Positions 8,633-54,664 of a DNA stretch of 60,810 bases are shown piece after piece. Made by a program: the position numbers and the translations under genes. How positions within the stretch are numbered: position 1 is the first letter of the stretch; every line of letters starts with the position of its first letter. Origin of the DNA: Desulfosarcina sp. (GTDB lineage: Bacteria; Desulfobacterota; Desulfobacteria; Desulfobacterales; Desulfosarcinaceae). Where the stretch lies: assembly GCA_014237405.1 (NCBI GenBank), contig JABZFO010000159.1:1-60810 (forward strand), in the 5' to 3' direction. The notes below the pieces were generated by a model that ran no database searches, was not told the DNA's origin, and was given only the letters and a program-made list of their open reading frames with translations.

Positions 8633-9064
8633 ATGACAAGAAAGTTGATTATAGCGGTTACAGCGGTTTTAAGTTTTTGTCTGATATCCACCTCGGCCTG
8701 GGCAGGGTCCAAACAGCAGCATCGGTGGGAAGGGGTGGCCATCGGTATCGGTGCGGCGATCGTTGGCAGTGCCCTCATCAACCACCATGCCACCGGCTAT
8801 CCTGGGGGACCGCCGATGGCGTTTTCATTTAACTACCGTGAACATCATCGGCATTCCGCAAGGCATCACGGCCATTGGAAACCCCACTATTACGGTCACC
8901 ATAACCATTGGCGCCCCCATTACCGGGGACACCATTATCGAGGTCATCACCCGCATCGGAGCACCCATGGCAATTGGCGCAAGGGGAGCTGGAAATCACA
9001 TGACCGAGGGCATCACGGTGGTCAGAGAAGCCATCGCCGCGGTCACGGGGGACGGGGGATGTAG
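8633..9064 (+). CDS. Exported glycine-zipper/histidine-rich protein, ECF regulon member 1
   Basis: A 143-residue protein beginning at ATG 8633 behind a strong AGGAGG site. A classical signal peptide (MTRKLIIAVTAVLSF to SAWA) is followed by the block AGSKQQHRWEGVAIG and a short Gly/Ala-rich helix (IGAAIVGSALI). The remainder is extremely rich in His, Arg, Gly and Tyr (HHRHSARHHGHW, repeated GHH units), which could bind metal or polyanions. The first 25 mature residues are nearly the same as those of the protein at 11735-12073; the C-terminal parts are unrelated. The ECF promoter copy upstream and the terminator downstream make it a single-gene transcription unit. No characterised family was recognised, and metal binding is only an inference from composition. 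Confidence 0.85.
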   Translation: MTRKLIIAVTAVLSFCLISTSAWAGSKQQHRWEGVAIGIGAAIVGSALINHHATGYPGGPPMAFSFNYREHHRHSARHHGHWKPHYYGHHNHWRPHYRGHHYRGHHPHRSTHGNWRKGSWKSHDRGHHGGQRSHRRGHGGRGM

Positions 9065-9105
9065 GTGTGTGTCCTTCCGCAACATGCGTGAACTGACTCA
9101 AGATC

Positions 9106-9150
9106 AGCAACCCGGGACATCAGCAGGATTGGTGCCCCGGGTTGCTTTTA
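9106..9150 (+). terminator. Intrinsic terminator after the His-rich gene
   Basis: An 11-bp perfect stem (AGCAACCCGGG at 9106-9116 with CCCGGGTTGCT at 9136-9146) with a 19-nt loop, followed by TTTTA. It closes the unit begun by promoter copy 1. Confidence 0.8.
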
Positions 9151-9354
9151 AAAAAGCTTAGACATCCACGCTTCCCTGATTTATATTACCGCCGCGTTGG
9201 AGATGTATGTCATCTTGATTGTCAGGGGTTAAGATTTCATCCGGAGAAGCATTCACCTTCTGAGATTTGATTTGACCCTGCAAACTCCGAGAACTGGTGA
9301 TTTTGCAGGGCAATGAACACAAGTATTTTTAAAATGAGGAAGGAAAACGCAGCA

Positions 9355-9912
9355 ATGAGAAGATTGATCCTGATCGGTATGATAGGGGTGTTCGCATTGA
9401 GCGGCTGTGCCGCACCGCAGACCAAAACCGGAAAGGGGGCTGCCTATGGTGCCGCCGGCGGCGCAGTGGCCGGTGCCGTATTGGGCCAGGCCATTGGTGG
9501 CAATACGGAAGCGACACTCCTCGGTGCGGCGGCCGGTGCTGCCGTGGGTGCTGCCGCCGGTGCCGGTGTCGGCCACATGATTGTCAGCTTCGATCTGGAT
9601 TCCGATTTAGTCAGGCCCGGCCTTTACAATGAATTGGACCGAATCGCCCAGGTCCTGATCAAGTATCCCCAAACCTCGATTCTGGTGGAAGGCCACACGG
9701 ACAGCACCGGTTCAGACACCTACAACCAGCAGCTCTCCGAACGCCGTGCCAACAGCGTGAAGAATCTTTTGGTGCAGCGCGGGGTCCAGGTCTACCGGAT
9801 CAATACCATCGGTTACGGAGAAAGCCGCCCGGTGGCCACCAACGCCACACCGGAAGGGCGCCAGATGAACCGTCGAGTGGAAATCCGCATCAATCCCAAT
9901 GCCCAAGGATGA
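9355..9912 (+). CDS. OmpA/Pal-like outer-membrane lipoprotein with glycine-zipper domain
   Basis: A 185-residue lipoprotein. The start ATG 9355 gives a lipoprotein signal peptide with lipobox LSGC; upstream in-frame ATGs would bury it. Residues ~30-80 form a Gly/Ala glycine-zipper segment (GAAYGAAGGAVAGAVLG). Residues ~85-180 are an OmpA C-terminal peptidoglycan-binding domain (VEGHTDSTG, QLSERRANSVKNLL, GYGESRPVATN, NRRVEI). YiaD/Pal-type proteins anchor the outer membrane to the cell wall. It sits between the two ECF-controlled units, but I see no ECF promoter motif in front of it, so it may be independently expressed. Confidence 0.92.
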   Translation: MRRLILIGMIGVFALSGCAAPQTKTGKGAAYGAAGGAVAGAVLGQAIGGNTEATLLGAAAGAAVGAAAGAGVGHMIVSFDLDSDLVRPGLYNELDRIAQVLIKYPQTSILVEGHTDSTGSDTYNQQLSERRANSVKNLLVQRGVQVYRINTIGYGESRPVATNATPEGRQMNRRVEIRINPNAQG

Positions 9913-10000
9913 TGACGCGTTTTTTTTACCCTTTTGATCGGATCGAAATCGACCGGATATTGCCGCACCGTCTGTAGTGCGCCATTAAACCCGAAAATAT

Positions 10001-10027
10001 TGAACTTTTTCTTCTGAGCGGTGTCTA
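10001..10027 (+). promoter_or_regulatory. ECF-sigma promoter copy 2 (autoregulatory, for the sigma operon)
   Basis: TGAACTTTTT (10001-10010), 9 nt, GGTGTCTA (10020-10027). Spacing and sequence are the same as in copies 1 and 3. It lies immediately before the sigma factor, implying that the sigma factor transcribes its own gene. Confidence 0.82.
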
Positions 10028-10047
10028 AAACCATACAAAACAGAATT

Positions 10048-10623
10048 GTGCACGACGAGGAGCTGGTTTTCCAGCTGCAACGGGGTGACGAATGGGCGTT
10101 TCAGCTGCTGGTCCGCCGGTTTCGCAAAAAGATCTTTTCCATTGCCTTCGGAATCACCCTTAACGTCGAGGAGAGCCAGGATATCGTGCAGGAGGTTTTT
10201 TTGCAGGTTTATCGGACCATCGGCAATTTCAGGGGAGATGCGTCGCTGTCCACCTGGCTTCACCGCATCACGGTGAACCGGTGCCTCAACTGGAAGCGGC
10301 GATGGGTCCGGCGGTTCAAGTGGCCGCACGTTTCTACCGACAGCACCGATGGACAGCCGGCAGCAGAGCCTGAAAGCGATCTGCCCACACCGGAAACCCG
10401 GGTGGTTAGCGCACAAACCCGGCAGCAGATAGACAATGCCCTGAAAATGCTGCCGGATCAGGCCAGAACGGTTTTCGTGTTCAGGGAACTGGATGGCCTT
10501 TCCTACGAAGAGATCGCAGATGCCACCGGAATTAAGCTGGGAACCGTGCGATCCCGGTTGTTCCATGCACGCAGGCGACTCAAAGAGATCCTGCAGCCGC
10601 TGGTGGAGGAGGAGGAAAAATGA
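10048..10623 (+). CDS. ECF-family RNA polymerase sigma factor (RpoE-like)
   Basis: A 191-residue sigma factor. Region 2 is at ~10-80 (QRGDEWAFQLLVRRF, SQDIVQEVFLQVYRTIGNF, STWLHRITVNRCLN) and region 4 at ~130-180 (LPDQARTVFVFRELDGLSYEEIAD, GTVRSRLFHARRRL). An open reading frame begins with GTG 10021, but that codon lies inside the predicted -10 element, so GTG 10048 is the better start although its ribosome site is weak. Its stop overlaps the anti-sigma start (ATGA). The promoter copies upstream of this gene and of two exported-protein genes define its likely regulon. Confidence 0.93.
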   Translation: MHDEELVFQLQRGDEWAFQLLVRRFRKKIFSIAFGITLNVEESQDIVQEVFLQVYRTIGNFRGDASLSTWLHRITVNRCLNWKRRWVRRFKWPHVSTDSTDGQPAAEPESDLPTPETRVVSAQTRQQIDNALKMLPDQARTVFVFRELDGLSYEEIADATGIKLGTVRSRLFHARRRLKEILQPLVEEEEK

Positions 10624-43429: not shown

Positions 43430-43978
43430 ATGGATGATCAACATCTGCTCGACCAATTTTTCACGCACCCCGACTGCCGTAAAGTCCGCAGCTGCATCCA
43501 GTGCGGCACCTGCAGCGGATCCTGTCCGCTTGCCGCTGAAATGGATCACGCGCCCAGGGAGCTTTTTGCGCTGATTCGTGATGGCGAAATAGATATCGCC
43601 CTGCGCTCCAATACGCCCTGGTACTGCGTCTCCTGCTACCAGTGCATGGACCGTTGCCCCCAGGAAATCCCGGTGGCGGATATCATGTACCGACTCAAAC
43701 AGATGGCCATCGCCGCCGGCTGCCAGCCCCGGTCCCACAAACTTCCCGATTTTTATCGTGCCTTTGCCGACGACATGGGCAGAAACGGCCGCATGACCGA
43801 AACCCATGTCATGGCACGTTACAGCCTGAAGCACCCCATGGATGCGGCCGCCAACATGGCTACGGCGTTGAAGCTGCTGGCCCGCGGCCGCCTGGACCTA
43901 ATTCCCAACCGGACCCACCATCCCGCACAGATCGCCGCCCTGACGACCATGTGCCGCAAAAGGGGGAGTGACTCGTGA
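43430..43978 (+). CDS. hdrC: HdrC-like heterodisulfide reductase subunit C
   Basis: A 182-residue iron-sulfur protein with two 4Fe-4S motifs: CIQCGTCSGSCPLA (~27-40) and CVSCYQCMDRCPQEIP (~68-83). It passes electrons between HdrA and HdrB. The stop overlaps the hdrB start by 4 nt (GTGA). It begins an hdrC-hdrB-hdrA operon. Confidence 0.93.
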   Translation: MDDQHLLDQFFTHPDCRKVRSCIQCGTCSGSCPLAAEMDHAPRELFALIRDGEIDIALRSNTPWYCVSCYQCMDRCPQEIPVADIMYRLKQMAIAAGCQPRSHKLPDFYRAFADDMGRNGRMTETHVMARYSLKHPMDAAANMATALKLLARGRLDLIPNRTHHPAQIAALTTMCRKRGSDS

Positions 43979-44832
43979 CGGTCTATGCCTTTTTCCCCGG
44001 ATGCGCCTATCAAAGTGCCGCCGGCTACAGGGAGTCGGTGGATGCCCTCAACGCCCGATTGGACATCCAGCTGCAAGAACTGGACGACTGGAACTGCTGC
44101 GGCGCCACCGCGGCCTTCAGCCTTGACGAGCCGGACGGGCTGGCCCTGTGCGGGCGACTCTTCGCCCTGGCCCAAAAAGAAGGGTTTTCCCGGATCGTCA
44201 CCGTGTGCAACGCTTGCTACACCACGCTTCTCAAAGCCAGGAAGCGCATGGAAAAAGATCCGCAAAAGCTTGCGGCGGTGGCCCATACGCTGGCCGATCA
44301 GGGGCTTGAACTTGCCGATTCGCTGCCCGATGTGCGCCACTATCTGGATGTGCTGGTCGCGGATGTTTCCGATGTTCTGGAAAAAGCAGCCGCTGACAAT
44401 GGTGATACGGCAGGGGCGGTGGCCGTTTATTACGGGTGCCAGTACACCCGCCCCTGGATCAGCGGGCCGGATGCCCAGCGCCCCCGCATGCTGGAGCGTT
44501 TGTTTACAAAAATAGGCATTCACGCCGTGGACCATTCCGCCGGCACCCTGTGCTGCGGCGCCTCCCACGCTGTGCCCTATGCCGACGCCTGCGGCCCCAT
44601 GATCCGGCGGATCGTCCGGGAGATCCGCAACAAAGGGGGGGGGATCATCACCACCATCTGCCCCATGTGCCAGTTCAACCTGGACGCCGGACAGACGGAT
44701 CGGCAAACCGATCCCCTGCCGGTGACCTATTTTACGCAAATCATCGGACTGGCCCTTGGCATCGCCCCAAAGGATTTGGGATTGAACAAGCTGCTGATTC
44801 CCCTGCGTACTGAAAAGAAGAAGGCTTCATGA
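43975..44832 (+). CDS. hdrB: HdrB-like heterodisulfide reductase subunit B (two CCG domains)
   Basis: A 285-residue protein starting at GTG 43975, which overlaps hdrC. Two complete cysteine-rich CCG domains are present: FFPGC, WNCCGA, VCNAC (first) and YYGCQ, LCCGAS, ICPMC (second). These hold the non-cubane [4Fe-4S] clusters that reduce disulfides in HdrB. It overlaps hdrA by 4 nt. No selenocysteine codon is used here. Confidence 0.93.
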   Translation: MTVYAFFPGCAYQSAAGYRESVDALNARLDIQLQELDDWNCCGATAAFSLDEPDGLALCGRLFALAQKEGFSRIVTVCNACYTTLLKARKRMEKDPQKLAAVAHTLADQGLELADSLPDVRHYLDVLVADVSDVLEKAAADNGDTAGAVAVYYGCQYTRPWISGPDAQRPRMLERLFTKIGIHAVDHSAGTLCCGASHAVPYADACGPMIRRIVREIRNKGGGIITTICPMCQFNLDAGQTDRQTDPLPVTYFTQIIGLALGIAPKDLGLNKLLIPLRTEKKKAS

Positions 44833-46799
44833 ACCCGAGTGACCCGAAAATCGGCGTTTACGTCTGCCACTGCGGCATGAATATCGCCCCCAAAGTGGAT
44901 GTGGAAAAAGTGGCGGGTTTTGCCGGTACTCTGAACCACGTGGCCGTGACCCGTGACTACAAGTTCATGTGCTCCAATCCCGGGCAGGAGATGATCATAG
45001 CGGATATCAAGAACCATGGCTTGAACCGGGTGGTGGTGGCCTCCTGCTCCCCGCGCATGCACGAGCCCACCTTCAGAAAGGCCTGCCAGAGCGCCGGCAT
45101 CAATCCCCACTATTTTCAGATGGCCAACATCCGCGAGCATGTCTCCTGGGTGACCCAGGATTCGCAGCAGGCCACCATCAAGGCCATGGACCTGGTCAAA
45201 GGGGCCGTGGCCCGGGTAGTCAACCACCGTCCCCTGGAATCCCGGGAGGTAAAGGTGGAAAAGGTCGTTCTGGTTGTCGGCGGCGGCATCGCCGGCATGC
45301 AGGCAGCCATCACGGCCGCAGATGCCGGCTATAAAATCTATCTGGTGGAGCGGGAGCCGTCCATCGGCGGCCACATGGCCAAGTTCGACAAGACCTTTCC
45401 CACCCTGGACTGCGCCGCCTGCATCATGACTCCCAAGATGGTGGTGGTGGACCAGCACCCGGGCATCACCATTTACACGTACAGCGAGGTGACCGGCATT
45501 TCCGGGTTCGTAGGCAACTACACGGCCACCATCCGCAAGAAGCCGCGGTATGTGATCGAAGACCGCTGCACTGGCTGCGGCACCTGCATGGAAAAATGCC
45601 CCTCCCGAAAAATCCCCAGCGAATTCAACGAGGGGCTGGGAAACCGCACGGCCATCTATTCGCCCTTTCCCCAAGCCGTGCCCAAGACCCCGGTGATCGA
45701 TCCGGACACCTGTCGGGTGCTGGCGCTGAACAAGCGCTGCGGGGCCTGTGCAAAATTCTGTGAGGCCGACGCCATCGATTTTGACCAGCAGTCCGAGAAT
45801 ATCGAAATCAGCGTGGGATCGGTGATCGTTGCCACAGGGTTTCAGGCCTTCGACCCCACGCCGCTGGCCAGCTACGGCTACGGCATCTACCCCGAGGTTT
45901 ATACCAGTCTGGCTTTCGAACGGCTCAACAACGCCACCGGTCCTACCGCCGGTGCCATCACCATGCAAGACGGCCGGGTGCCCGCGCGCGTGGCCATCAT
46001 CCACTGCGTGGGGTCCAGGGACACGCGCCATCATACCTACTGCAGCCGCGTCTGCTGCATGTATTCGATGAAATTCGCCCACCTGATCCGGGAAAAGACA
46101 GGCGCCGAGGTGTGGGAGTTTTACATTGATGTGCGCAGCCCCGGTAAACTGTACGAAGAATTTTACAACCGCGTCCAGGAGGAGGGTGTCCATTTCGTGC
46201 GCGGCCGTGTGGCCGAAGTGACGGACATCGCGGAGCGGGAAGCGGACCAGGGGCGGTTGACCGTGGTGGCCGAAAACACCCTGACCCGCAAAACCATGCG
46301 CCTGCCTGTGGATATGGTGATCCTGAGCGTGGGGCTGGAGCCGGCCACAGGGGCCAAGGAATTGAGCCGGCTGTTGAACATTTCCATGGATGGCGACGGC
46401 TGGTTTACCGAACTGCACGCCAAACTGGCGCCTGTGGCCACGGCTACCGGCGGCATTTTCCTGGCCGGCTGCTGCCAGGGACCCAAAGATATCCCCGACA
46501 CGGTAGCCCAGGCATCGGCGGCGGCGGGTGAGGTCATCGCCCTGCTGGCCAGGGGCACCGTGACCACCCGGGCGGAAATCTCCCATATCGATCCGGACCT
46601 GTGCAGTGGTTGCCGGCTTTGCCTGAACACCTGCATCTATTCGGCCATCACCTTCGACGAAGGCTTGAATGTGGCCCAGGTGAACGAAGCCCTGTGCCAG
46701 GGATGCGGGGCATGTTCGGCCATCTGTCCCAGCAGTTCGGCCTCTGTGGACCATTTCACCGATCGCCAGGTGATGGACGAACTGGAGGCAATATTATAG
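44829..46799 (+). CDS. hdrA: HdrA-like flavin-containing heterodisulfide reductase subunit A
   Basis: A 656-residue flavoprotein, likely the electron-bifurcating subunit. It has the N-terminal IGVYVCHCG block, the VASCSPRMHEPTF motif, an FAD dinucleotide fold (VVGGGIAGMQAAI, ~145) and the Cys-containing TLDCAACIMTPKM and HCVGSRDTR-YCSRVCCMY blocks. It also carries 4Fe-4S motifs at ~245 (CTGCGTCMEKC), ~300 (CGACAKFC), ~592 (CSGCRLCLNTC) and ~623 (CQGCGACSAIC). With HdrB and HdrC it forms the first Hdr complex in this window; its disulfide substrate in this organism is not known. Confidence 0.94.
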   Translation: MNPSDPKIGVYVCHCGMNIAPKVDVEKVAGFAGTLNHVAVTRDYKFMCSNPGQEMIIADIKNHGLNRVVVASCSPRMHEPTFRKACQSAGINPHYFQMANIREHVSWVTQDSQQATIKAMDLVKGAVARVVNHRPLESREVKVEKVVLVVGGGIAGMQAAITAADAGYKIYLVEREPSIGGHMAKFDKTFPTLDCAACIMTPKMVVVDQHPGITIYTYSEVTGISGFVGNYTATIRKKPRYVIEDRCTGCGTCMEKCPSRKIPSEFNEGLGNRTAIYSPFPQAVPKTPVIDPDTCRVLALNKRCGACAKFCEADAIDFDQQSENIEISVGSVIVATGFQAFDPTPLASYGYGIYPEVYTSLAFERLNNATGPTAGAITMQDGRVPARVAIIHCVGSRDTRHHTYCSRVCCMYSMKFAHLIREKTGAEVWEFYIDVRSPGKLYEEFYNRVQEEGVHFVRGRVAEVTDIAEREADQGRLTVVAENTLTRKTMRLPVDMVILSVGLEPATGAKELSRLLNISMDGDGWFTELHAKLAPVATATGGIFLAGCCQGPKDIPDTVAQASAAAGEVIALLARGTVTTRAEISHIDPDLCSGCRLCLNTCIYSAITFDEGLNVAQVNEALCQGCGACSAICPSSSASVDHFTDRQVMDELEAIL

Positions 46800-47150: not shown

Positions 47151-47660
47151 TTACTTCGATTCATACCGGCTTACAATTTCCGCGATGCGTGCAGCGATGT
47201 AGTCAGCAAACTCCTTGGCCTGGGTCTCGGACATTGTCGCGATGCCGTCCGCCAGCTCAAAGATCTTTTCTTCCTCCAATCCGGTTGTTTTATGGACCAT
47301 AAACGCTTCCACCTCCCCATCCTCAGGAAGAAGGCCGCATCCACCGGCCGTACCAAGAAAGGTGTCACCCACGAAAATCGGAACAGCCACTTTAATCAGG
47401 GCGAGATCGCACTCTCCGATCATCGGTTTTCGGGTCGCCTTCGTTTCCGCAGTAAAATTCTGCGCTGCCACAGCACAGATGGCCCCGATTGCCTCGGGTT
47501 TCCTCTTGATGACCGGACAAATCCGGTTGCACCAGTTTTCATAATGGCTCACGTGAGCACCCGCCGCGTCCGAGACCGCACAGCATATGCCAAACTTCTC
47601 ATGGAGGTCTTTTACAAAATTGTTCCACTCATTTTCACCTAACAGGTCCGTTAGTGTCAT
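47151..47660 (-). CDS. Stand-alone PocR sensory-domain protein
   Basis: A 169-residue single-domain protein: LTDLLGENEWNNFVKDLHEK, WCNRICPVIK, and FVGDTFLGTAGGCGLLPEDGEV. PocR domains bind small ligands and are usually fused to regulators or chemoreceptors; the free-standing form is likely a sensor or ligand-binding accessory. A second copy is at 56102-56611. A short gap separates it from the broken gene downstream. Confidence 0.88.
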   Translation of the reverse strand: MTLTDLLGENEWNNFVKDLHEKFGICCAVSDAAGAHVSHYENWCNRICPVIKRKPEAIGAICAVAAQNFTAETKATRKPMIGECDLALIKVAVPIFVGDTFLGTAGGCGLLPEDGEVEAFMVHKTTGLEEEKIFELADGIATMSETQAKEFADYIAARIAEIVSRYESK

Positions 47661-47962
47661 GGTTACTGCTCCTTCTATTTCCCTGTTCCCGGCCTATTAA
47701 TAAGAAACCACCGACGTGTCAAATAAATCGGTAAGGTAACAAAATTGAATATCGGCTGTAGGTCGTGTTGTCAACCAGCTCTTTTTTTTCTTTGTTTGGA
47801 CGATTAAATTGTGGCCGTACTGCCGCGCATGGCGGCATGAATCTTTTGTAGAAAACTTCGGATTGACCATTAACGAGGTATGTATTAACGTTTTCGAGAA
47901 TCGATTTTGGCAGAGGTTACCCGATTGATTTGGACATATACTAAAAAATGGAAGGCTCCAGC

Positions 47963-48385
47963 ATGGCCACTCGCGAACCGAAAATTATTGCCCTGGTCTG
48001 CAACTGGTGCACTTACACGGCCGCCGACCTGGCCGGCACGTCGCGATTGATCTATCCGGCCAACGTACGCATGGTCAGGTTTATGTGTACGGGTATGATC
48101 GACGTCAAGTACATCATCAAGGCTTTTCTCGAAGGCGCCGACGGTGTTTTCGTGGGCGGATGCCACCCGGGGGACTGCCATTATATCAACGGCAATGTCA
48201 AAGCTGAACGTCGAATCTCCGGGCTGCAGGTTTTGCTGGAGCAGTTCGGCATTGACCCCAAGCGGTTCACACTCAAATGGATCGGCGCCAGCGAGGGGCC
48301 CGAATTTCAGAGAAACATGCAAGAATTCACCCGGACCATCGCCGAACTGGGTCCCCAGATTGAATCCGATATGATGATATTATAG
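47963..48385 (+). CDS. mvhD: MvhD/FrhD-like iron-sulfur protein (2Fe-2S delta subunit)
   Basis: A 140-residue protein from ATG 47963 (GGAAGG upstream; ATG 47948 lacks a site). Cysteines typical of MvhD are present: LVCNWCTYTAAD, VRFMCTGMID and GGCHPGDCHYINGN. MvhD carries electrons from a donor enzyme to HdrA. It heads the second module (mvhD, FrhB-like, tandem hdrA, HdrD-like). In some relatives one of these positions is selenocysteine; here all are Cys. Confidence 0.9.
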   Translation: MATREPKIIALVCNWCTYTAADLAGTSRLIYPANVRMVRFMCTGMIDVKYIIKAFLEGADGVFVGGCHPGDCHYINGNVKAERRISGLQVLLEQFGIDPKRFTLKWIGASEGPEFQRNMQEFTRTIAELGPQIESDMMIL

Positions 48386-48435: not shown

Positions 48436-49530
48436 ATGATTGTCGAATTTGAAAACACGTTGAACACGCCTGATGCGGTTCGCGCCTTTTTAAAACGGCT
48501 GCTCGATGACGCTTTAGCTGACGCGGTCCTGACGGCCTTCGCTTCCCCCCATTCGCCATTGCCCATGCCCACCCTGATGATCGACTCGCAGCTTCTGGAT
48601 CGGGCCGTCCCCCTTGCGCCGGCAGCCCCTTTAAATACCGCCCGCATGGCAGCCCGGGTGCTGTCCAAAGATATCGGAAAACGTATCGCGGTGGTCCTGC
48701 GACCCTGTGAGATCCGGGCTTTGATCGAAATGGAAAAATTGAGTCAGTGCACCCTGGATCCGGCGATTCTTATTTCCATGGACTGCTTCGGCCGGATGGA
48801 AAACGATCGATACCTGGAACTGGCTGCGACCCAAGACGATCCTGAAAGTGCCTTTTATGCGACACCGGATTTGCAGGAGGCCGTCTGCCCCAGCTGCCGT
48901 GCCTGTTTGCGGTTCATTCCCGAAAATGTCGATGTAACCCTTTGCCTGGCGGGGCAATCGGACAAAAAGGGAGTCACGCTCGTGTCCGGCAGCCTCAAGG
49001 GGGAAAAGGTGCTGAAGAAACTGGGCGGTACATCGACGGATCTGCCCCTCGGCCGCCAGGCGGATATCGACCGCATCATGGCCCGGCGGCAGACCCATCG
49101 CGAGGAAATGACAACGGGGGCCGCCGCGCGCATGGCGGACATGGCCGTCTTTCAGCAGACCATCGCCAACTGCCTCAACTGTTACAACTGCCGGGTGGCC
49201 TGCCCGGTGTGCTACTGCAAGGAGTGTGTCTTCGTCACCGACGTATTTGCCCACCGGCCGGAGATCCTGATGGGCCGGGCCATGAAAAAGGGGGCCGTGA
49301 AGATTCCCACGGACACCACCATGTTTCATTTGACCCGTATGGCCCACATCGCCCATGCCTGCGTAGGCTGCGGCCAGTGCTCCAGCGTTTGCCCCAGCAG
49401 CATCCCGGTGGCGGACCTGTTCATCACCGTATCGGAGAAAGTTCAGGAGCATTACGGATACATCCCCGGGCAGGATCCCCAGCGTCCCTGGCCGTTTCTG
49501 GTGGTCGAAACTGACAAGCAAGTAGAATAG
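48436..49530 (+). CDS. FrhB/FdhB-like iron-sulfur flavoprotein subunit
   Basis: A 364-residue protein with an N-terminal FrhB/FdhB-like region (ARVLSKDIGKRIAVVLRPCE, shown in part; SMDCFGRMEN), a Cys-rich VCPSCRACLRF segment, CLNCYNCRVACPVCYCKEC and a 4Fe-4S motif CVGCGQCSSVCPSS near the C-terminus. Such subunits link HdrA to NAD(P)H, ferredoxin or F420-type donors. The gene lies 50 nt after mvhD and 7 nt before the tandem-HdrA gene. Confidence 0.85.
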   Translation: MIVEFENTLNTPDAVRAFLKRLLDDALADAVLTAFASPHSPLPMPTLMIDSQLLDRAVPLAPAAPLNTARMAARVLSKDIGKRIAVVLRPCEIRALIEMEKLSQCTLDPAILISMDCFGRMENDRYLELAATQDDPESAFYATPDLQEAVCPSCRACLRFIPENVDVTLCLAGQSDKKGVTLVSGSLKGEKVLKKLGGTSTDLPLGRQADIDRIMARRQTHREEMTTGAAARMADMAVFQQTIANCLNCYNCRVACPVCYCKECVFVTDVFAHRPEILMGRAMKKGAVKIPTDTTMFHLTRMAHIAHACVGCGQCSSVCPSSIPVADLFITVSEKVQEHYGYIPGQDPQRPWPFLVVETDKQVE

Positions 49531-49537
49531 CGATATC

Positions 49538-52510
49538 GTGGAAAAGACCAAATCCCAATTTCTCGTTCTCGGCGCCGGTGTCGGCGGCATCTGCAGTGCC
49601 ATCGACTTGGCCGAGACCGGATATTCGGTGACTCTGGTGGAAAAGGGGCCGCGTACCGGCGGCATTATGCCTCAGTTAGATCACCAGTTTCCCGACGACC
49701 ACTGCGGCATGTGCCGCATGCTGCCCATGGTGGATCGGGAACCTGGGGCACAGACTTGCCTGAAGCGTGGACTTTCCCATCCTAATATCCGTATTCTCAC
49801 CCACACCACCTTGACCGATCTGAGCGGAAATCCGGGGGACTACACGGCTGTATTGACCAGTGTCTCCCGCGGTGTCGATGCGCTGCGCTGTACCCGCTGC
49901 ATGGCCTGCATCGACGTCTGCCCGGTAAGTGTCCTCGATGCCTTCAACGATCGGGCCGGTGACCGCAATGCCATTTACCAGCCCTTTTTCGGCAACCCCG
50001 AAGCGCTGCCCACCATCGACTGGGACAACTGCACCCGCTGCGGTGAATGCGCCCAAGCCTGCCCCAACAGTGCCATCGATCTGGAGCGCGTCGAACTCAC
50101 CGAAAGCGTGGCACCCGTGTCCGGTGTCATCGTGGCCGGCGGAAACCCCCTTTACGACCCTGCCGTGACCGATCTTTACGGCTACGGTGTGCTTCCCAAC
50201 GTGGTCACGGCCACGGCCTTCGAGCGCATCTTAAGTGGCAGCGGACCCTTTCGGGGGCAACCGGTGCGGCCCTCGGACGGCCATCCCATCCGCCGGGTGG
50301 CCTGGATCCAATGTGTGGGGTCCAGGAATGTGATGATCGGCGCCGGCCACTGCTCTTCCACCTGCTGCATGTTTGCCGTCAAGGAGGCGCTGCTGGCCAA
50401 GAAGACGCTGGGTTCGGACACCGATACGACCATCTTTTACATGGACATGCGCACCTACGGGCGCGACTCCCAGCGCTATCGTGACCGGGCTGAGGAAGAA
50501 TCCGGCGTGCGCTTCATCCGTTGCCGGATCCACAGCGTGGATCCAGCCGACGATCCCGGCGATCTGAAGCTGACCTATCTGGACGATCTGGGCCAGCCGG
50601 GCGAAGCGACCTTCGACATGGTCGTGCTCTCCACGGGAGCTGGTGTCCAAAAAGAGTTACCGCCGTTATTGGCAGACAAGACCGATCAGGGGGCTGTGGT
50701 TACCATCGGCCCCGAAGCCGGGCTGCAGGACATCCGGGAAACCGTGCTGCGGGCCCATGGCGCGGTGTCGTCTCTGCTGGAAAAGCTCAATATGGACAGC
50801 CGCGCAAAAACGATACCAAAAACGGGCAGGGCAGGGGATAAGTCTGTCAATCGGTTCATGCAGCAGCCAGTGATTCAGGTACTGGTCCTGGACAACGGTG
50901 TCGTCAAAGCGCCGCAGGTGGAGTGGCCGGCCATCGAAGGGAGACTTGAGCGGTCGCCTGGAAATATCTTCGTGAACCGCCTGTCCATCATAGATGGCAA
51001 GGATCTGTCGCTTGAACTGGAAACGGTGCTGAAAGAAACCCGGGGCAACCGGCTGCTGGTCGTATCCAACCATATAGCCGGATACCGGGCCACGCTGACC
51101 AAACGGTTCGAAGAAGCAGGATTCAGTGCACCGCTGGTGGAATGGGTGGACCTGAACCGCAACGACGTCAGTATGGGCACTGAAACCATCCAACCGGACG
51201 CCGCCATGAAGCCCATCCAGGTGGCCTTGATGCGTCTGCTGCACAAACGGCCCAGTCGGGGAATGGCCCAGGTTGTGGAAAACAGCGCCCTGGTGATCGG
51301 TGCCGGTCCCGCCGGGCTCAGCGCAGCCGTGTCCCTGGCCGAACAGGGAGTGGTCGTCCACCTGGTGGAAAAGGAAATAAGCATTGGTGGAAACGGCCCC
51401 CGTATCCAGGACGAACATCAGCGCCGGCCCATCGACCAGTTGATAGTCCGGGCAAAAGGCCACCCCAATATTTCCATTCACACCGGTGCCACGCTGGGCG
51501 CTCTGTCCGGACGACCGGGACATTTCGAGGGCTGGGTCGTGAAGGAAAATATGGAGATACCTCTTTCCTTTGGGGCGGCGATCATCGCCACCGGCGGCAC
51601 ACCGGCCATCACCGAGGCATACGGCATGGGAAAACACCCGCCGTTGGTGAGCCATTTCGACTTCGAGAAAAAAGTCCTCGATCCCCGGTTTGCCGAAGAC
51701 ACGCTAAACACCGTCGTGATGATCCAGTGCGCCGGCTCCCGGGAAGAGCCCCGCAACTACTGCAGCCGCACCTGCTGCGTCAAAGCCCTGGACAACGCCC
51801 TGCGGGTTCGGCAACTGTTTCCCCATGCCCGCATTGTGATCTTTTACCGGGATATCATGACCTATGGCAAGTCCGAGGAATTGTACGCCAAGGCACGCAC
51901 CCGGCGGATCCGGTTTATCCCTTTCAACAAGTCAAAACCACCAGTGGTTCGCACCGAAGGGGACACAGTGGTCGTGGACGGATTCGACCCGGTCATGGGC
52001 GAAGCGGTTCACTTGAAGGCGGACTGGGTATCCCTGGCCGTGGGTATGGTGCCTAAGCCGATTCACGACCTTTGCCGGCTGCTGGAGGTCCCGGTCACCC
52101 CGGATGGATTCGTGCACGAGGCGGACGCCAAGTGGCGGCCGGTGGATACGATCAATCCCGGTGTCTTCGTCTGCGGACTGGCCAAGGGGCCACTGCGTGC
52201 CGACGAGGCCGTGGCCGAAGGAACTGCCGCGGCCCTGCGCGCCCTGCGCCTGCTCAACCGGACCGAACTGGCCCCCCAGCGCCACAGCGCCGTGGTGCGC
52301 CACGCCATTTGTTCTCGCTGCTACCTGTGCGTGGATTCGTGCCCCTATGGGGCGCGTTTCGTGGAACCGGTACTTGGACAGGTGGAAGTAGACCCGGTCG
52401 CCTGCCAGGGCTGCGGCACCTGCGCGTCGGTCTGCCCCAACAGCGCCACGGTGATGGGGGAGAATGAAGATTTTACGGTGATGAATGTTATCGAAGCGGC
52501 ACTAATGTAG
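49538..52510 (+). CDS. Tandem HdrA-like flavoprotein (two HdrA modules in one chain)
   Basis: A 990-residue protein from GTG 49538. The first module has an FAD fold (VLGAGVGGICSAIDLAE), a Cys-containing HCGMCRM block, 4Fe-4S motifs CTRCMACIDVC and CTRCGECAQAC, and IQCVGSRN-HCSSTCCMF. The second (~585 on) has VIGAGPAGLSAAVSLAE, IQCAGSRE-YCSRTCCVK, and C-terminal motifs CSRCYLCVDSC and CQGCGTCASVC. A central part (LLVVSNHIAGYRATLTKRF) resembles a worn N-terminal HdrA domain. Two FADs in one chain are reported for BamE-type and related proteins, which fits a bifurcating role. It is 124 nt from the HdrD-like gene. Confidence 0.9.
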   Translation: MEKTKSQFLVLGAGVGGICSAIDLAETGYSVTLVEKGPRTGGIMPQLDHQFPDDHCGMCRMLPMVDREPGAQTCLKRGLSHPNIRILTHTTLTDLSGNPGDYTAVLTSVSRGVDALRCTRCMACIDVCPVSVLDAFNDRAGDRNAIYQPFFGNPEALPTIDWDNCTRCGECAQACPNSAIDLERVELTESVAPVSGVIVAGGNPLYDPAVTDLYGYGVLPNVVTATAFERILSGSGPFRGQPVRPSDGHPIRRVAWIQCVGSRNVMIGAGHCSSTCCMFAVKEALLAKKTLGSDTDTTIFYMDMRTYGRDSQRYRDRAEEESGVRFIRCRIHSVDPADDPGDLKLTYLDDLGQPGEATFDMVVLSTGAGVQKELPPLLADKTDQGAVVTIGPEAGLQDIRETVLRAHGAVSSLLEKLNMDSRAKTIPKTGRAGDKSVNRFMQQPVIQVLVLDNGVVKAPQVEWPAIEGRLERSPGNIFVNRLSIIDGKDLSLELETVLKETRGNRLLVVSNHIAGYRATLTKRFEEAGFSAPLVEWVDLNRNDVSMGTETIQPDAAMKPIQVALMRLLHKRPSRGMAQVVENSALVIGAGPAGLSAAVSLAEQGVVVHLVEKEISIGGNGPRIQDEHQRRPIDQLIVRAKGHPNISIHTGATLGALSGRPGHFEGWVVKENMEIPLSFGAAIIATGGTPAITEAYGMGKHPPLVSHFDFEKKVLDPRFAEDTLNTVVMIQCAGSREEPRNYCSRTCCVKALDNALRVRQLFPHARIVIFYRDIMTYGKSEELYAKARTRRIRFIPFNKSKPPVVRTEGDTVVVDGFDPVMGEAVHLKADWVSLAVGMVPKPIHDLCRLLEVPVTPDGFVHEADAKWRPVDTINPGVFVCGLAKGPLRADEAVAEGTAAALRALRLLNRTELAPQRHSAVVRHAICSRCYLCVDSCPYGARFVEPVLGQVEVDPVACQGCGTCASVCPNSATVMGENEDFTVMNVIEAALM

Positions 52511-52634: not shown

Positions 52635-53870
52635 ATGGAAATATGCACCCCTGATAATACCACTTCATCTATTCTACAATCAGCACCTCGGCGACCGGTG
52701 GACAGCCCCACCCCCCTGTGCCTTTCCTGCGGCACCTGCTCGGCCGGTTGCCCCATTACGGGACAGAGCGGCTTCGATCCACGAAAGATCGTCCAGATGG
52801 TGCTGGCCGGCCGGGATAAGGAGCTGGTGAAATCCAACCTGCCCTGGCTGTGCACCCTGTGCGGCAAGTGTGAGTACGCCTGTCCCATGGGCATCAATAT
52901 TATCAGCATCATCAGAACGGCCAGGGGCCTTGTGGATCGGGACAAAGTGCCGGGGCAGATCCACAAGGGGGTGGAACTGGGGCTGAAAACCGGCAACAAC
53001 CTGGGTCTGCCCCAAGAGGACTTCACTTTCATCATCGAGGATGTGGGCGAAGAACTGTCCGCCGAATCCGGATTCGAGGATTTTATGGTGCCCATCGATA
53101 AAAAGGGCGCCCGCATGCTGCATACCCTGCACAACAAGCTGGTCAACACCCAGAATGAGGACCTGGTGCACTGGTGGAAGATTTTCCATGTGGCCAGTGA
53201 GAGCTGGACCATCCCTTCGGTCAATTGGGAAGGCGTGAACTGGGGCCTGTTTTCCGGGGACAACGATGCCATGAAAACCTTCGTGGACCGTATCGCCCAT
53301 CACATGCAGGCCTTGGAACTCTCCTGCCTCATGTATCCGGAATGAGGGCATGCGTATCTGACAACCCGGTACGGGTTGGAAAAATGGCACCCTGAATTTT
53401 TTGATCGGTACGAAACCGCCACCGTCTTCGACCTGTTGATCGAATACCTCAAGTCCGGTCGTATCCGGGTGGACAAGTCCGTCAACAACGTCCGTGCTGC
53501 CTACCACGACCCGTGCAACTACGGACGCAAATCCCAGGAGCTCTTCGGTCATGGCTATTTTGACGAGCCCCGCTGGGTGATGGACCAGTGCATGAGCGAC
53601 TGGGTGGACTTGTTTCCGTCCCGGGGCAATCAGTACTGCTGTGGTGGTGGCGGCGGAACCCTGCTGACGCCCTTCAAGGACGAACGCACCCATTATGGCC
53701 GAAAAAAGATAGAGCAGATCCGGCGGACCGGCGTGGGGACCATCGTGGTTCCCTGCCACAGTTGCCACGGACAGATCAAGGCCATAGCCGCCGCCTACGA
53801 TATGCCGGACCTGACCGTGAAATACCTGTGGGAAGTGGTGGCCGATGCCCTGGTGATCGATCCGGATTGA
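52635..53870 (+). CDS. Selenocysteine-containing HdrD-like iron-sulfur protein (in-frame UGA at 53343)
   Basis: A 411-residue protein if UGA 53343-53345 is read as selenocysteine. N-terminal 4Fe-4S motifs are CLSCGTCSAGCPIT (~32-45) and CTLCGKCEYACPMG (~74-87). The UGA falls at MYPE-U-GHAYLTTRYG, where homologues carry Cys of the first CCG motif (PECGHA). The frame continues without break for 174 codons with the second CCG domain: HDPCNYGR, YCCGGGGG and PCHSCHGQ. A perfect hairpin 16 nt after UGA (53362-53378) meets bacterial SECIS rules. HdrD-type proteins hold the disulfide-active non-cubane cluster; Sec at a cluster-ligand or active position is expected to raise reactivity. It ends the second Hdr module. 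Confidence 0.85.
53362..53378 (+). ncRNA. Bacterial SECIS element
   Basis: CAACCC (53362-53367), loop GGTAC (53368-53372), GGGTTG (53373-53378): a perfect 6-bp stem with a loop starting GGU, as in known bacterial SECIS hairpins. The loop begins 22 nt after UGA, within the accepted range. It lies inside the coding sequence, as required in bacteria. Confidence 0.82.
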
Positions 53871-53957: not shown

Positions 53958-54664
53958 ATGCAAACCCAGCTTGTCATCGACCATATTGTCAAATGGCTCA
54001 CCCAGTATCTTGACCAATCGGGCATGAAAGGCTTTGTGGTGGGCGTTTCCGGCAGGCGCCGGATCAGGTAAGCCGGTCCGCCAATCATATCCAGTGGCTT
54101 CAAGGGCGTTACGCCAGCGTGGACGGCGTGACCGTAGACCTGACACCGGTATTTGAATCCCTGCAAAGCGCCCTTCCTGACGCCATCCAGGATGGTTTGA
54201 CCCTGGCCAACAGCAGAAGCCGGCTGCGCATGCTCACGCTCTACGCCTTTTCCACCCACCACCGCATGCTGGTGGCCGGCACCGGCAACAAGGTGGAGGA
54301 TTTCGGCGTGGGATTTTACACCAAGTACGGCGACGGTGGGGTGGACCTGTCGCCCATTGCCGACCTGAAGAAATCAGAGGTCTATGTCCTGGCAAAAGCG
54401 ATGGGTATTAGCGATGAGATCATCCAGGCGCCGCCCACGGACGGCTTATGGAACGATAACCGGTCCGATGAAAGCCAGATCGGAGCCACCTACGATGAAC
54501 TGGAGTGGGCCATGGCATTCAATGCCGGCAAGGGCGACGAACAGGCCCTTGAGCCCAGGCAGCGGGAGGTGCTCTCCATCTTCAGGAAATTCAACCGCAT
54601 CAACCGGCACAAGATGTCGCCGATACCCGTCTGCATCATTCCCGAACCCATTCGAAACGGTTAG
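53958..54664 (+). pseudogene. nadE: nadE, NAD+ synthetase, P-loop segment missing and frameshifted near 54049
   Basis: ATG 53958 (GGGAG upstream) reads QTQLVIDHIVKWLTQYL to GFVVGVSG, then the frame breaks. It resumes within a few bases as QAPDQVSRSANHIQWLQ and continues in the other frame through LANSRSRLRMLTLYAFS, the GTGNKVEDFGVGFYTKYGDG catalytic region and SQIGATYDELEWAM. Between GVSG and QAPDQ other NadE proteins have about 25-30 residues including the rest of the ATP-pyrophosphatase P-loop (SGGIDS), so the lost part is essential. NadE makes NAD+ from nicotinic acid adenine dinucleotide. A functional copy must exist elsewhere, or the junction is an assembly gap. Confidence 0.85.

Follow-up and report, generated by a model that had tools for sequence, protein, structure and literature searches.

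A comparative study from 2006 counts Fe-S oxidoreductase (GlpC) among the selenoprotein families of deltaproteobacteria (PMC1794560), and a 2026 review gives the GlpC family the motif UGH and describes the functions of such proteins as largely uncharacterized (PMC13188914). As described there, the GlpC selenoproteins resemble the protein studied here in that they are Fe-S oxidoreductases with a Sec-Gly-His motif, encoded beside HdrA/MvhD-type genes in deltaproteobacteria (PMC1794560, PMC13188914); however, the operons published there have the order glpC-hdrA-frhD-frhG-frhA, whereas the neighbors at the present locus are FlpD (FrhD/MvhD-type), a dicluster protein resembling FrhB, and a double HdrA. 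For the sulfate reducer Desulfobacterium autotrophicum HRM2 two further selenocysteine (Sec) containing proteins, HdrD4 and HdrF2, are reported, both of them likewise described as HdrCB fusions (PMC2702500). A metagenome-assembled genome named Desulforapulum autotrophicum contains a relative of our Sec gene in the same gene order (locus L152).

Three better known systems serve as points of reference. DsrK, as well as HmcF and TmcB, has a similar architecture, and the ECGH motif of the DsrK encoded in the same genome aligns with the PE-U-GH of the Sec protein; the difference is that this DsrK has cysteine and not selenocysteine at the position. EtfD of Mycobacterium smegmatis (PDB 9ojn) is, unlike the Sec protein, membrane-bound and holds a linear [3Fe-4S] cluster, D1, in its CCG domain 1, with Cys581 as one of the ligands; in the Sec protein Cys581 is replaced by Sec and Cys584 by Ala. 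HdrB (PDB 5odc and 8rvu, and the HdrB encoded in the 60,810-nucleotide stretch of Desulfosarcina sp. DNA analyzed here, the window) differs in having two complete CCG motifs, that is, two catalytic noncubane clusters.

Results

The features of the locus are collected in Table 1. The Sec protein combines a 4Fe-4S dicluster (residues 29-87) with a CCG domain, which we take to be the definition of COG0247, and its UGA codon is followed by Gly-His as in the motif of the GlpC selenoproteins. Judged by these sequence features, the gene can be assigned to the already published Fe-S oxidoreductase-like (GlpC, COG0247; PTHR43551) selenoprotein family. The sequence-only reading of the window had proposed that the frame continues past the UGA with an intact second CCG domain, and this holds: 174 of the 411 codons lie 3' of the UGA, and the five CCG cysteines are all present. 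Together with the eight ferredoxin cysteines, they are found outside position 237.

Table 1. Coordinates in the window of the Sec gene, its parts and its neighbors
Feature	Position	Strand	Remarks
HdrC-like dicluster protein	43430..43978	+	named from motifs
HdrB	43975..44832	+	two intact CCG motifs
HdrA	44829..46799	+	
PocR-domain gene	47151-47660	opposite	between HdrA and FlpD
FlpD/MvhD	47948..48385	+	Cys form
FrhB/FdhB-C-like protein	48436..49530	+	with 4Fe-4S dicluster domain
Double HdrA-like flavin/Fe-S protein	49538..52510	+	990 aa, directly upstream of the Sec gene
hdrD-like selenoprotein gene (HdrD/DsrK-like)	52635..53870	+	411 codons plus stop, from ATG to terminal TGA (53868-53870); predicted Sec at codon 237
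HdrC-like half	52719..52895	+	two [4Fe-4S] ferredoxin motifs, Cys 29, 32, 35, 39, 73, 76, 79, 83
First HdrB-like (CCG) domain	53109..53489	+	degenerate, holds Sec237; residues about 159-285, boundaries approximate
In-frame UGA	53343..53345	+	predicted Sec, codon 237, motif PE-U-GHA
His239 codon	53349..53351	+	aligns with EtfD His583, a noncubane-cluster ligand in EtfD
Bacterial SECIS hairpin	53362..53378	+	CAACCC-GGUAC-GGGUUG; loop GGUAC 53368-53372
Second CCG domain	53499..53780	+	intact, Cys 294, 335, 336, 374, 377; residues 289-382; predicted noncubane [4Fe-4S] site

All 25 NCBIfam models listed for the Sec protein scored below their cut-offs. The best scores were those of HmcF (166.6 bits against a cut-off of 750; NF045711), TmcB (151.1 against 735; NF045724) and DsrK (133.5 against 400; NF045796), and we reject all three assignments. 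An HdrB or HdrD with two catalytic noncubane clusters is rejected as well, only the second CCG motif, with its five cysteines, being complete.

The column that corresponds to codon 237 is TGA in 56 of 58 related loci and TGC in the other two; these loci are the best-ranked ones from the two genome searches given below and are biased to close relatives. It is TGA also in all 15 loci of named genomes, three of which (L146, L148 and L152) repeat loci from the first set (L018, L019 and L020). Among 60 relative genomes, the own genome included, 26 matches had at least 44% identity; one is stop-free and the other 25 contain one or two in-frame TGA codons. A phylum-wide search of 297 genomes, in which at most six candidates were scored per genome, gave a match at E ≤ 1e-100 in 50 genomes and 77 matches in total, of which 28 are stop-free and 49 carry an in-frame TGA, accompanied in one case by a TAG. 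Of the 80 genome loci examined, 58 have UGA at position 237 and the remaining 22 have Cys, and the UGA members span 34-77% identity to the Sec protein. Among the 83 full-length public homologues, 68 have Cys in this column too, which bears out the earlier proposal that the UGA stands in place of a cysteine. In a quick tree of 90 sequences, Sec and Cys were interchanged at least four times, and one clade of 39 sampled sequences consists entirely of Sec genes.

In 14 of the 83 full-length public homologues the column holds Ser, Gly, Ala or Leu, with the other cluster cysteines kept. All of these belong to a kind (474-498 aa) that is fused to an HTH_17 domain, and they perhaps have a different job. 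Among the homologues listed from public collections, the 82 full-length ones of 456-513 aa (P0003, P0055, P0075 and others) have a DNA-binding HTH_17 (PF12728) N-terminal to the HdrD-like part, the exception among the full-length homologues being P0002 (329 aa). These HTH_17-fused proteins are possibly Fe-S redox-sensing regulators. A further variant is the Cys clade formed by L042 and L106-L119, whose motif is PDCGGG in place of PECGHA and which therefore is without the His of the UGH motif; the noncubane cluster may be open in these proteins.

The own genome contains 23 matches to the Sec protein. A UGA is present in the gene itself and in the two homologues that come closest to it (at 37 and 35% identity), both of which have a hairpin (z of -3.24 and -4.44); the remaining 20 matches, partial or distant, are stop-free. 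Another Sec HdrD-like gene of this genome was seen at L159 (G000:C93, 2105-9718), between a gene named metF-like from its sequence and a 1478-aa HdrA-FlpD fusion, a layout that is like a methylene-THF reductase-Hdr complex.

The hairpin had been recognized from the sequence, and it stands. It begins 16 nt past the UGA, and an alternative pairing that uses one base more gives 7 bp with a GUA loop. The rules for bacterial SECIS elements in the 2026 review give a loop of 3-9 nt with a G within its first two positions, a stem of 4-16 bp, 16-37 nt from UGA to loop and a minimum free energy of at most -7.5 kcal/mol (PMC13188914); the hairpin agrees with every one of them, with 22 nt from UGA to loop and -10.4 kcal/mol. 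Compared to dinucleotide shuffles, the folding energy has z-scores of -0.84 (43 nt), -2.27 (58 nt) and -0.67 (66 nt), which is unremarkable for the 43-nt and 66-nt pieces and lower for the 58-nt one, and the energy alone is therefore weak proof. An Rfam search returned nothing at gathering scores and one chance match (E 2.2). The case for a predicted Sec is carried by the comparison among relatives, not by the energy of the hairpin.

In this comparison the nucleotides 17-40 past the UGA were refolded after each of 1000 random synonymous changes of codons that leave the peptide as it is. All 56 UGA genes had a negative z (mean -2.58; rank ≤0.05 in 43), including the gene under study with -3.24. 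The mean z was -0.48 in 22 Cys genes (20 of the 28 stop-free phylum-wide matches, L042 and L043), with a rank ≤0.05 in two. The hairpin is thus under selection beyond the demands of the peptide in the UGA genes. It occurs in two registers, and in 55 of the 56 genes nucleotides 26-27 past the U of UGA are G-G. Compensatory changes are found in both registers: in the first, pair 24-31 changed from C-G to U-A in 6 of 34 genes and pair 25-30 from A-U to C-G in 4 of 34; in the second, pair 23-33 changed from C-G to U-A in 3 of 12 and pair 22-34 from A-U to G-C in 2 of 12, with pair 20-36 disrupted in 3 of the 12. Ten UGA genes match neither register at the required stem length. One of the two Cys genes with a rank ≤0.05, L101 (G310:C51:16639-17847), has a strong SECIS-like hairpin (z -3.33); it sits in a mixed clade of five Cys and two Sec genes and probably represents a recent change from Sec to Cys with the hairpin retained.

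Close relatives with a true stop and decayed sequence behind it would have spoken against Sec; the relatives instead keep the UGA and an intact continuation. Comparison with 12 relatives gave pN/pS values of 0.21-0.35 for the part before the UGA and 0.20-0.35 for the part after it (pS of 0.54-0.99, near saturation), and sequence identity is similar on the two sides; purifying selection acts on the sequence before the UGA as it does on the sequence behind it. The absence of the Sec machinery had been named beforehand as grounds for giving up the Sec reading, and all four genes are present above their cut-offs: selA (609.2 bits, cut-off 267.9), selB (366.9, cut-off 242.25), selC for tRNA-Sec (75.4, gathering score 47) and selD (374.6, cut-off 125). 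The selD of this genome (L048; G000:C8:65230-66156) contains one in-frame TGA, and the selenophosphate synthetase is probably itself a selenoprotein. The expectation that automatic annotation would split the gene was borne out for the upstream half, which stands alone in public collections: among 120 homologues listed in a search in which downstream halves would have been too short to appear, 37 are short and end in MYPE, at the residue just before the UGA. We conclude that the reading of the UGA as Sec is supported and that the features on which it was based are not due to chance; insertion of Sec at codon 237 is predicted from the sequences with near certainty.

Gene Neighborhood

The order FlpD, FrhB-like protein, double HdrA, Sec gene is found in 8 of the 15 named loci. 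Contig ends leave only the double HdrA beside the gene in three of the 15 and place the Sec gene itself at the end in two; L156 has a different Hdr cluster. No Hdr or FlpD neighbor was detected by tblastn at the last of the 15, L149 (Sec hdrD-like gene on an 18-kb contig, gene around 9001-10200, 9 kb before and 8 kb after it) or at L097. Among 20 further neighborhoods, three of which overlap the named loci, an HdrA-type gene is present in 19 and FlpD in 17. Seven neighboring proteins of the window were scanned, and none is an FrhA- or FrhG-type subunit. In the three relatives in which it was read (L144, 1039-4380; L148, 966-4331; L157, 1184-4543) the HdrA of the cluster carries a stop-free insert, which in L148, the one scanned with Pfam, contains Fer4_20 and Pyr_redox_2 and resembles the HdrL type described for D. 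autotrophicum (PMC2702500). Downstream of the Sec gene, nadE (53960-54664) looks broken: a short N-terminal piece, ended by a stop, precedes an ORF (54119-54664) that covers only positions 77-239 of the NAD synthase model, and the other NAD synthase match in the genome (C127) is single, weak and partial. This could be an assembly error.

The genome encodes DsrC and a separate true DsrK (716.7 bits), and the host is therefore likely a sulfate reducer. The gene context, together with the alignment of the DsrK ECGH motif to PE-U-GH, suggests that the most likely role of the Sec protein is to form the thiol/disulfide end of an electron-transfer complex built on HdrA.

Discussion

The selenoprotein family to which the gene is assigned is not new; what is new is the location of the Sec, which, from the alignments, coincides with a ligand of a cluster that has seemingly been lost. 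Sec237 aligns with Cys581 of EtfD, and its counterpart in HdrB is the cysteine that opens the CxxC. The next EtfD cysteine, Cys584, aligns with A240, and residues 155-236 contain no invariant Cys (33 of 57 rows have Cys at column 229, where the Sec protein has Leu); the EtfD alignment covers EtfD from residue 579 on, with Cys503 and Cys538 outside it. From A240 and residues 155-236 we therefore reject an EtfD-type linear [3Fe-4S] site with its four Cys ligands, and on the same grounds a D1-like cluster seems to have been lost from the Sec protein. Sec237 lies two residues from His239, whose EtfD counterpart is a ligand of the neighboring noncubane cluster. By analogy with EtfD, Sec237 would thus be near the noncubane cluster.

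We find a redox-active role for Sec237, as a selenol adjacent to a single noncubane cluster, more likely than a role as a cluster ligand, and give this reading a probability of about 0.55. It is favored because the 13 ferredoxin and CCG cysteines are present elsewhere in the protein and because column 237 is variable in the HTH-fused homologues. In the mechanism that we propose, the five CCG cysteines would hold one noncubane [4Fe-4S] cluster, at which His239 would sit as His583 does in EtfD. The first CCG domain would be without a cluster of its own, and Sec237, at the place of the former ligand, would face the remaining cluster. Electrons would then pass from the two ferredoxin-type clusters to the noncubane cluster and on to a selenosulfide that joins Sec237 to the substrate, so that the Sec protein would serve as the electron link between the HdrA-type flavoproteins encoded in the gene cluster and a thiol/disulfide substrate. 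Several observations speak against this model. In EtfD, His583 completes the noncubane cluster and renders it non-catalytic, and the cluster may be a mere relay here too; the Cys clade of L042 is without the His; the rows with a substituted position 237 are all HTH_17-fused, and the genome loci have UGA or Cys exclusively; and the genes at L149 and L097 appear without an Hdr or FlpD neighbor.

A less probable explanation is that Sec237 is a direct ligand, binding one iron in the noncubane cluster or anchoring what is left of the first CCG cluster, and adjusts the potential or lability of that cluster with no reaction with substrate. The alignment with a ligand of D1 and with the HdrB CxxC speaks for this explanation, and the restriction of the genome loci to UGA and Cys is consistent with it. 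However, the partner Cys584 is A240, residues 155-236 offer no invariant Cys as a further ligand, and the 14 HTH-fused homologues with Ser, Gly, Ala or Leu keep their other cluster cysteines. The sequence-only reading had held that Sec replaces either a cluster-ligand or an active-site Cys: the replacement of a Cys is supported by the relatives, and of the two options the evidence favors a residue next to the cluster, not a ligand.

It is also conceivable, at rather long odds, that selenium serves mainly in protection from oxidation or matters only under certain selenium supplies, with the Cys forms catalyzing the same reaction, and that the protein is an electron relay with no chemistry at position 237. 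The repeated interchange of Sec and Cys and the hairpin retained in the Cys gene L101 fit such an explanation, as does the role of the neighboring noncubane cluster of EtfD as a relay; nevertheless, the conservation of the UGA in members as diverged as 34-77% identity and the all-Sec clade of the sample suggest a lasting advantage of selenium. A true stop, leaving a pseudogene or two separate genes, is very improbable: the ordinary hairpin energy and the separate upstream half in public collections would agree with it, but it is contradicted by the UGA in the same column, the covarying hairpin, the equal purifying selection on both sides and the full Sec machinery.

The GlpC-type family has been catalogued as a predicted selenoprotein family without an assigned role, and the mapping onto EtfD and HdrB gives the Sec a concrete, testable place and job. 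It also links the Sec to the ECGH cysteine of the DsrK in the same genome. As public collections truncate the family at the UGA, surveys of Hdr-type electron transfer in sulfate reducers that draw on such annotations miss the CCG domain. Tentatively, a selenol might in this widespread family replace a whole Fe-S cluster, one noncubane cluster and a selenol doing what two noncubane clusters do when heterodisulfide reductase splits a disulfide. If the selenol is indeed the second reactive center, then the ECGH position of DsrK would be the catalytic thiol of sulfate respiration.
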